From Palaeococcus pacificus DY20341 (lineage in GTDB: Archaea; Methanobacteriota_B; Thermococci; Thermococcales; Thermococcaceae): a stretch of DNA of 64,000 bases. Shown here in pieces: positions 11,061 through 64,000 of this stretch. Location of the stretch: NCBI RefSeq assembly GCF_000725425.1, contig NZ_CP006019.1, forward strand, positions 1,462,480 to 1,526,479, read 5' to 3'. The position numbers were made by a program, and so were the translations under genes. Under the pieces are notes generated by a model. The model saw nothing but the letters and a program-made list of their open reading frames with translations. It ran no database searches and was not told the origin of the DNA. Each line of letters begins with the position of its first letter. Position 1 is the first letter of the stretch.

Positions 11061-11128
11061 CAGGCGATGACGATTAGCAAGCAAACTGACTTGATGCGTA
11101 ATGATGACGTGAACACCCTCTGAGCCTA
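11061..11128 (+). ncRNA. C/D box 2'-O-methylation guide RNA
   Basis: The order of elements is a terminal stem AGGC (11062-11065), C box ATGACGA (11067-11073), a 12-nt spacer, D' box CTGA (11086-11089), C' box ATGATGA (11101-11107), another 12-nt spacer, D box CTGA (11120-11123), and closing GCCT (11124-11127), which pairs with AGGC. Equal 12-nt spacers are a hallmark of archaeal C/D RNAs. The D guide (11109-11118) is identical to 61991-62000, the complement of the 23S rRNA, so it pairs for 10 bp plus one G-U. The fifth base from the D box pairs with the U equivalent to E. coli U2552 in the ribosomal A-loop. The C box has one deviation from RTGATGA. The RNA's 3' stem overlaps the stop codon of the convergent GH130 gene. 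Confidence 0.85.
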
Positions 11129-12052
11129 TTCCCAGTAAGCTAAGCCAATGTATCTGTCTGCACCTCCATAGTAGAGGTAAATTCTTCCCTCGTGCTCAAC
11201 TAGCCCTTCTACAAAAACAACATTGTCAACCCATCCGTTGATTTCCCACTCATAAGTGGGTTCTAAGATCGGTTCTTGGGTCCTGGCTATTAGCTTAGTT
11301 GGATTTTCCTTGTCAAAAACGGCAATGCCCACTTTGTATTTTCTAACTCCTTCATCCATCCCTGCGCTGTTGTAGATAAGCACTATCCCAAAGTCAGTCA
11401 TTATTGTCGGTGGCCCGGGTTCAACAAGAATGCTGTCGAAGTTCCCCTTCCTTGGTCTCAAAACAGGCTCTTCCACGTATTCCCAGTGGATTAAGTCCTT
11501 TGAGTGGGCCAGCCAAATATTTGAGTCTCCGAAATACATTATGTACTTCCCTTTGAACTCGCTTTTTTTCATCTTTAATGGAAGGATTGCTCCGCTTTTT
11601 GTCCAGTCGTTGGTTTGGGGAAACTCATCAAAAATTGGCCCGTGCTTTTTCCAGGTTACCAGGTTTTTTGACGTTGCTAAACAGAGCTTTGCGGTTTTCC
11701 CGTCATAGCCGGTGTATGTCATGTAGTATGTGTCCCCAACTTTAACAACCCTCGGGTCTTCGACGCCCTTCTTTTCGTACTCATACTCAGGCTCAATTAT
11801 TGGCTCTGGATGTCTCAAGAACTCCACGCCGTCTTTGCTCAAGGCTAACCCAATCCTTCCCGTTATATCATCATCTTTGCTCTCCGCCCTGTAGAGCATT
11901 ACAATAGCATCCCGCTCTTTTATCACTGCAGCGTTGTATACGTTCTTTGAATCAAATCCCTCCCTTGATGGTGACAAAATAGGAAATGGGAGCTTTTTTA
12001 TAGGGGGAGCAATAGCTTTCCCATCTTGAACCTTTATTATCTCCTCAATCAT
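11126..12052 (-). CDS. GH130 family glycoside phosphorylase/hydrolase
   Basis: A 308-residue five-bladed beta-propeller protein. The VEDPRV segment near residue 95 carries the family's conserved catalytic Asp, and repeated blades show YYMTYTGYDG, KYIMYFGDSN and IYLYYGGADR. GH130 enzymes phosphorolyse or hydrolyse mannosides and related glycosides. ATG 12052 is preferred because GGTGAT lies upstream; a TTG at 12058 would add two residues. It overlaps the end of the upstream debranching-like gene by 8 bp and belongs to the sugar island. Phosphorylase versus hydrolase cannot be settled by eye. Confidence 0.82.
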   Translation of the reverse strand: MIEEIIKVQDGKAIAPPIKKLPFPILSPSREGFDSKNVYNAAVIKERDAIVMLYRAESKDDDITGRIGLALSKDGVEFLRHPEPIIEPEYEYEKKGVEDPRVVKVGDTYYMTYTGYDGKTAKLCLATSKNLVTWKKHGPIFDEFPQTNDWTKSGAILPLKMKKSEFKGKYIMYFGDSNIWLAHSKDLIHWEYVEEPVLRPRKGNFDSILVEPGPPTIMTDFGIVLIYNSAGMDEGVRKYKVGIAVFDKENPTKLIARTQEPILEPTYEWEINGWVDNVVFVEGLVEHEGRIYLYYGGADRYIGLAYWE

Positions 12053-13964
12053 GTCCAATCACCACTTTTTCGCCGTGGAACTTCATAACAACTTCGACCT
12101 TACCCAGCTCCTTTGGTAGTGTTGGGCTTATCCTAAGATCTCCATTTTCAACCCCAGCACCCAACATCGCAGTTAAGAAAGCAAAAAGACTTGCAGCACT
12201 CCAAGCTTGAGGAACGTTGGCCCTTGGGACTATCAATGGCACTTCGCTTTCAACACCGCTAAAGAGCTCGGGCATTTGGAAGTTAGGAAGCAATGTCCCG
12301 GCTTTCAAGAACGTGCTTCCAAGAAGTGCAGCTTTTTCTCTTTCCCCAACTTTTGATAATCCAAGGGCTATTATGGCGTTGTCGTGGGGCCAAACACTGC
12401 CGTTGTGGTAGCTGAATGGGTTGTAGGCTTTTTCTTTAGAACTTAGGGTTCTAATTCCCCATCCCGAAAACATATCTCTTTCAAACAGCCTTTGTGCAAT
12501 TTCCTTCTCATGCTCAGCTATGCCTGTGAAAAGCAGATGACCCGGGTTTGAAGAGATTACCTTTGAGGGCTTATTCTCTCCACTTAGGGCTATTGCGTAG
12601 AATTTTTCCTTTTTCATCCAAAAGTCTCTGTTAAACCGTCTCTTAAGCTTTGAAGCCTCACTCTTCAACAGCTTTTCATTAACATCTAAGACGTCTGAGA
12701 GTTCTGCCATATCGAGTAGTGCCTTGTATGCATAGCCTTGAACTTCAACCAATGCTACCGGGTGCTGGGTTGGTTTTCCATCCTCATCAGGAATGCCCTC
12801 AGTGGAATCCTTCCACCCTTGATTTCTAAGGCCTTTGAGAGAAAGGCTTGAGTACCTAACGTACCCATCGCCCTCTTCAATCTTTGCGAGCAGCCATTCA
12901 ACGGCTTTGTTTAGACTTTCCTTGAGCTCTCTTATTGTCTCATAGTCCCCCGTCCATTTTAGGTACTCCCCTGCTAGGATTAAGTAGAGGGGAGTTGCAT
13001 CTATTGTGCCGTAATATAGGTTGAATGGCAACCTTCCTCCCTGCGAGAGCTCGCTAAACCTAAATTCGTGGAGGATTTTCCCGGGCTCCTCACCCCTCAT
13101 TGAGTCAAAAGCTTTTCCTTGAAGCCTTGAGAGGATTCTAAGCGTCCCTTCTGCATATTCAGGGAAGTAAGGTAAGAGGAAGAGGGATGTTATTATGCTA
13201 TCCCTTCCAAAGAGGCTTACGAAGAAGGGAACGCCAGCAAATATTGTTACTCCATGAGCGGTTGAGACAGTGAGAGCACTTAAATCTTTGAGGGCAATTC
13301 TAAACACTTCGTTTATCTTACTGCTGCTGGTTTTCACTATCTCATCAAGCTTAAAATGGAGCTTTTCTTTCAGCAGGGCCTGAAGGCTCTCCTGATAAAC
13401 TTTTGGATAGAAAATTACCTCTACCTCCTCACTCCTTAGGGGATCTAATGTAATTCTTCCCATGAATCCGCTTTCGTTTGGAACCAGCTTTGTGCTCTTC
13501 GCTATCAGCTCCCTTTTAACCCCATCAATGCCAGAATAGTAGTATTTCCTTCCGTCTTTTTGCTCTTCAAACTTAATCTCCCTCGTAATCCCCGGATATC
13601 TCCTGACCTCAAAAATGTCGTCAAATGAGATTTTGAATAGGTAGTTTATTAAGATCTCCTTAGGCTCGTGCGAAAGGTTGTAAAAAGTCAGCACTTCCCT
13701 GTATGTCCAGTTTTCAGCAAGTTCTCTTTTTCTAACTAGTAAAATTGAACTCTTTCCACTTTTTAGGAGCATGTGAGAAATTGAGGCGTGCGATGCAAGC
13801 TCAACATGTCCGAGGAGCTGCTTTTCATAGTGCTCTACCTCGAGTGAGATATCGCTTACAAACCTTGTGTCAAAGGCATAAAATCCGTGATATTCGCCGT
13901 TCATGTCTCCTTTTACATCGGACACAACAAAAGCTCCGTTAGAAGACAATATGACCCTGGTCAT
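12045..13964 (-). CDS. Amylo-alpha-1,6-glucosidase-like (alpha/alpha)6-barrel protein
   Basis: A 639-residue protein. The N-terminal beta domain (about 1-195, with GFYAFDTRFVSDISLE) fits the GDE_N_bis family. The rest is an (alpha/alpha)6 barrel with FVSLFGRDSIITSLF, YYGTIDATPLYLI and NPFSYHNGSVWPHDNAII, as in glycogen-debranching and GH63/GH15-like enzymes. The acidic residues in GRD, TIDAT and the WKDSTEG segment are candidate catalytic sites. It has its own TATA box and is followed by GH130 with an 8-bp overlap. The substrate is unknown; an alpha-glucoside or mannoside is likely from context. Confidence 0.75.
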   Translation of the reverse strand: MTRVILSSNGAFVVSDVKGDMNGEYHGFYAFDTRFVSDISLEVEHYEKQLLGHVELASHASISHMLLKSGKSSILLVRKRELAENWTYREVLTFYNLSHEPKEILINYLFKISFDDIFEVRRYPGITREIKFEEQKDGRKYYYSGIDGVKRELIAKSTKLVPNESGFMGRITLDPLRSEEVEVIFYPKVYQESLQALLKEKLHFKLDEIVKTSSSKINEVFRIALKDLSALTVSTAHGVTIFAGVPFFVSLFGRDSIITSLFLLPYFPEYAEGTLRILSRLQGKAFDSMRGEEPGKILHEFRFSELSQGGRLPFNLYYGTIDATPLYLILAGEYLKWTGDYETIRELKESLNKAVEWLLAKIEEGDGYVRYSSLSLKGLRNQGWKDSTEGIPDEDGKPTQHPVALVEVQGYAYKALLDMAELSDVLDVNEKLLKSEASKLKRRFNRDFWMKKEKFYAIALSGENKPSKVISSNPGHLLFTGIAEHEKEIAQRLFERDMFSGWGIRTLSSKEKAYNPFSYHNGSVWPHDNAIIALGLSKVGEREKAALLGSTFLKAGTLLPNFQMPELFSGVESEVPLIVPRANVPQAWSAASLFAFLTAMLGAGVENGDLRISPTLPKELGKVEVVMKFHGEKVVIGHD

Positions 13965-61613: not shown

Positions 61614-64000
<2,387 letters not shown>

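Follow-up and report, generated by a model that had tools for sequence, protein, structure and literature searches.

The methylated uridine Um2552 (E. coli numbering) lies in the catalytic centre of the ribosome, and unrelated systems make it in different lineages. In Pyrococcus, the passage of Grosjean et al. (2008) that deals with this site records P. abyssi sR25 as predicted by Gaspin et al. (2000) for U2669, the equivalent of E. coli U2552 (PMC2584109). The same authors reported that H. volcanii has a homologue of RlmE and that a guide could not be found there (PMC2584109). Dennis et al. (2015) predicted guided methylation of the A-loop U in five of seven archaea, in a survey without any Thermococcales; these guides share the predicted target of the RNA described here, and it is by that target that we liken them to it (PMC4644070). 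In yeast, the C/D guide snR52 serves the equivalent Um2921 and uses the fibrillarin homologue Nop1 (PMC2584109, PMC12123411), although this system is eukaryotic and the stand-alone enzyme Spb1 can methylate the same U too. RlmE (FtsJ/RrmJ) has the same predicted product, Um2552, but it is a stand-alone protein and is missing from the Thermococcales.

We analysed a stretch of 64,000 nucleotides from Palaeococcus pacificus DY20341 (hereafter, the window). Judged from its sequence and its homologues, the locus at 11061-11128 on the plus strand very probably encodes a double-guide C/D box sRNA, an orthologue of sR25, that would guide methylation of the A-loop U (E. coli U2552). The initial annotation of the window had put forward this idea, which is supported as right, yet was already known from the sR25 prediction: the comparison with known Pyrococcus sR RNAs that it recommended leads to an RNA with the same predicted target, U2669 = U2552, and its implied novelty falls with the Grosjean et al. 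passage (PMC2584109). A text search of papers for the guide sequence returned nothing relevant.

Among the relatives, we take one genome to be that of P. abyssi and one genus, with nine genomes, to be Pyrococcus. A homologue is present in 9/9 genomes of that genus, and the presumed P. abyssi genome contains one strong covariance-model match only; counted from the Rfam boundary, the A-loop U of this genome has number 2670, a difference of one from the published 2669. Because the predicted target is the same (the 23S position of P. abyssi U2669 and E. coli U2552) and a single locus matches, the window RNA is best called the sR25 orthologue of Palaeococcus pacificus. It is like Pyrococcus sR25 in the kind of RNA and in predicted target, but it differs from the Pyrococcus copies in its D'-C' linker (11 nt, compared with 3 nt) and in box C (ATGACGA, compared with ATGATGA).

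At the Rfam gathering threshold, no family matched at the locus. The sR3 model (RF01133), which has the same box layout, scored the window copy at 35.5 bits, short of the 41 bits required; some homologues reach this threshold by a narrow margin. Since both guide sequences differ from those of sR3, this match reflects generic boxes, and on these grounds and that of the score membership in sR3 was rejected. The fifth base of box C and the second of box D (alignment columns 11 and 61, at 11071 and 11121 of the window) form a divergent kink-turn pair: most genera have C/C, A/C or C/T here (box C base first), and the genus taken as Pyrococcus has mainly T/T. This divergence may be one reason for the low Rfam model scores of the RNA. 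Box D reads CCGA in many homologues. At another of the loci read (L037, 5458-5560, minus strand), the H/ACA sRNA Pab19 is found a short distance upstream of the 16S gene.

Anatomy and conservation of the guide RNA

Direct reading of 11061-11128 (+) bears out the terminal stem, four boxes and two 12-nt spacers of the initial annotation (Table 1). Boxes C, D', C' and D follow one another in the layout of archaeal C/D box guide sRNAs and are closed by a terminal stem of 4 bp (AGGC/GCCT), which, with one further base, runs straight into box C, matching the kink-turn expectation. The C-D' and C'-D spacers are both exactly 12 nt in the window copy, and its box C departs from RUGAUGA once, at position 5 (T to C).

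Table 1. Positions of the sR25-type RNA, its promoter element and its predicted 23S rRNA targets in the window.
Feature	Position	Strand	Remark
TATA-box-like TTTAAAA	11033..11039	+	begins 29 nt upstream of the stem
C/D box guide sRNA gene, sR25-type	11061..11128	+	full-length homologues in 89/94 Thermococcales genomes
Terminal stem, 5' arm AGGC	11062..11065	+	direct reading of the sequence
Box C, ATGACGA (variant of RUGAUGA)	11067..11073	+	sequence and homologue alignment
D' guide TTAGCAAGCAAA	11074..11085	+	part TAGCAAGC complementary to 23S helix 89 GCUUGCUA
Box D', CTGA	11086..11089	+	direct reading
Box C', ATGATGA	11101..11107	+	direct reading
D guide CGTGAACACCCT, antisense to 23S A-loop	11108..11119	+	ten Watson-Crick pairs and one G-U
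Box D, CTGA	11120..11123	+	direct reading
Terminal stem, 3' arm GCCT	11124..11127	+	direct reading
D-guide target in 23S A-loop, GGGGTGTTCAC	61991..62001	-	predicted methylated U at 61997 (E. coli U2552)
Probable D'-guide target in 23S helix 89, GCTTGCTA	62052..62059	-	predicted target C at 62058 (about E. coli 2491)

BLAST detected the RNA in 84/94 Thermococcales genomes, and a covariance model recovered it at full length in 89/94, including all 74 high-quality ones, with a wide score gap between the top match and any second match. The remaining five genomes comprise four incomplete assemblies and one in which the copy is cut by a contig end. In the alignment of 73 distinct homologues the D-guide core GTGAACACCC is unchanged and the terminal stem is 96.9% paired, its outer pair alternating between G-C and A-U. 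The 12-nt spacers are kept in the 79 homologues parsed by a strict pattern; the D'-C' linker ranges from 3 to 11 nt and is variable in sequence too. Furthermore, the motif TT[TA]AA[AG] is found about 26-30 nt upstream of the RNA (40 in a few) in 80/83 homologues, compared with 2.45 expected from shuffles; the RNA probably has a TATA promoter of its own, from which it would be transcribed. A sigma-70 promoter scan was set aside as inapplicable to archaea.

These observations bear on whether there is a functional RNA at all, as the boxes might instead have come together by chance or overlie the 3' end of a gene. The 3' stem arm does overlap the stop codon of a convergent GH130 gene (11126-12058, minus strand). 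In addition, a D pairing as good anywhere in 16S and 23S rRNA was reached by 4/400 shuffled guides, about 1%, and by 13/800 random 12-mers of the window, and the D-guide match taken alone (p about 0.01-0.016) is not extreme; it becomes decisive only in combination with order-wide conservation and a fixed TATA box. However, boxes and spacers in this arrangement are found at a single place in the window and in 0/60 Markov-resampled windows, and the sequence downstream of the RNA differs between genomes while the RNA is retained regardless, so the overlapping gene does not explain its conservation. With full-length copies in 89 genomes, we regard the absence of a functional RNA as refuted in practice by conservation and give it a negligible probability.

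Predicted targets of the two guides in 23S rRNA

As the initial annotation had claimed, 11109-11118 (GTGAACACCC) is identical to 61991-62000 of the plus strand and hence complementary to 23S rRNA, and T at 11119 stands opposite G at 62001 (a G-U pair); read directly, the D guide and 23S GGGGUGUUCAC form ten Watson-Crick pairs and one G-U. A11115, the fifth base upstream of box D, faces U61997, the counterpart of E. coli U2552 in the alignment, as the annotation had held of its target (N+5). Nowhere else in the rRNAs does the D guide match as well as in the A-loop, where U2552 is at N+5. Target complementarity that places the modified base at N+5 is thus found for the D guide, and it is weaker for the D' guide (8 nt in the window copy).

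The A-loop has a single sequence in all Thermococcales genomes in which it was found at full match. Co-variation between guide and target is invisible within the order because both are invariant. Positions 2551 and 2557 of the A-loop are G and A in Thermococcales but U and G in the sister orders, and both order-specific bases (G2551 and A2557) are paired by the D guide. Scattered matches in four genomes were all that a search pattern for generic A-loop guides (CGAACAGCCNCTGA) returned. One divergent A-loop copy (G063:C38:2521-2547) was seen, in an incomplete, 4%-contaminated assembly, and possibly belongs to another organism. The P. pacificus genome itself carries two A-loop copies on opposite strands (G000:C1:767539-767567 and window 61982-62010), which probably means two 23S genes.

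The D' guide probably targets helix 89 of 23S rRNA, as judged from its complementarity. Its core TAGCAAGC is invariant in the homologue alignment and is the exact complement of GCUUGCUA in helix 89, at a site 61 nt upstream of the D target; the pairing covers 8 nt in the window copy and up to 10 in Pyrococcus. The D' guide might have its real target elsewhere, for example at 16S GGGGCTTGCTGG, a reading that is compatible with the A-loop target of the D guide. Once G-U pairs are allowed, the D' guide of the window copy matches other rRNA sites with an equal score, and in the genus taken as Pyrococcus two copies have a slightly longer pairing at the 16S site. Yet several copies in that same genus form 10 Watson-Crick pairs with helix 89, the invariant 8-mer complements it exactly, and double guides often have closely linked sites. 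We therefore consider the 16S site a weaker alternative, and another target for D' unlikely. Close to the helix 89 site, 23S ACCUCGCUGUCGG (window 62046, minus strand) has C where E. coli has A2503; this C was read in the genome itself and in the other Thermococcales copies examined (L091-L100).

Guide RNA and RlmE across the class

To function as a methylation guide, the RNA would work with fibrillarin and Nop5, and the genes for these two proteins adjoin each other in the genome. We infer the following sequence of steps. After transcription from the RNA's own TATA promoter, L7Ae, Nop5 and fibrillarin would form a complex on both the C/D and the C'/D' motif. Once the D guide had annealed to the 23S A-loop, fibrillarin would add a methyl group to the 2'-OH of U2552 (E. 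coli numbering), the U whose pairing partner lies five bases from box D. Helix 89, 61 nt upstream, would be the docking site of the D' guide, which may either direct methylation of a C there or merely hold or chaperone the rRNA.

The protein known to make the same modification was not detected: the RlmE model TIGR00438 had no match at E <= 1e-15 in the 94 Thermococcales genomes. FtsJ Pfam matches occur in every Thermococcales genome, but we rejected them as RlmE, as they are weak and resemble other methyltransferases. The single SpoU-family protein found in the P. pacificus genome is TrmJ-like. Among the 21 other genomes of the class, TIGR00438 matches 19, and the guide-RNA covariance model gave no convincing match in any of these 21. 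One 99%-complete genome of a sister order (G102) has neither RlmE nor the guide RNA.

These protein searches bear on a further possibility, that the locus is a real C/D sRNA acting mainly as an rRNA chaperone that bridges helix 89 and the A-loop, and that methylation of the A-loop U is the work of a stand-alone protein. The two guides have their 23S matches 61 nt from each other, and chaperone roles have been proposed for archaeal C/D sRNAs (PMC4644070). Protein enzymes methylate this U elsewhere, namely RlmE and, in Thermus, the SPOUT enzyme RlmR (PMC12123411). We nevertheless hold this division of labour to be very unlikely, since RlmE is found in 0/94 Thermococcales, the one SpoU-family enzyme found is TrmJ-like, and the D pairing has the exact N+5 geometry of methylation. 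RNA-guided methylation of the A-loop U, as claimed by the initial annotation, remains the best reading of the sequence data, with a D guide invariant in 73 homologues, fibrillarin and Nop5 genes, and no RlmE.

No report of the reciprocal pattern of RlmE and guide RNA was found in the papers searched. The pattern amounts to one evolutionary event and therefore suggests, rather than proves, that RlmE was replaced by a guide RNA in Thermococcales. About evenly balanced, in our view, is the more detailed proposal that at the base of the order RlmE was swapped one-for-one for the guide RNA, together with a change from U2551/G2557 to G2551/A2557, by which, in one lineage, a near-universal ribosomal modification would have come under RNA guidance instead of being made by a protein. 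The window RNA itself is an expected member of the family described in Pyrococcus. Taken together with its relatives, it offers a clean case in which Thermococcales appear to use a guide RNA where sister orders carry RlmE.
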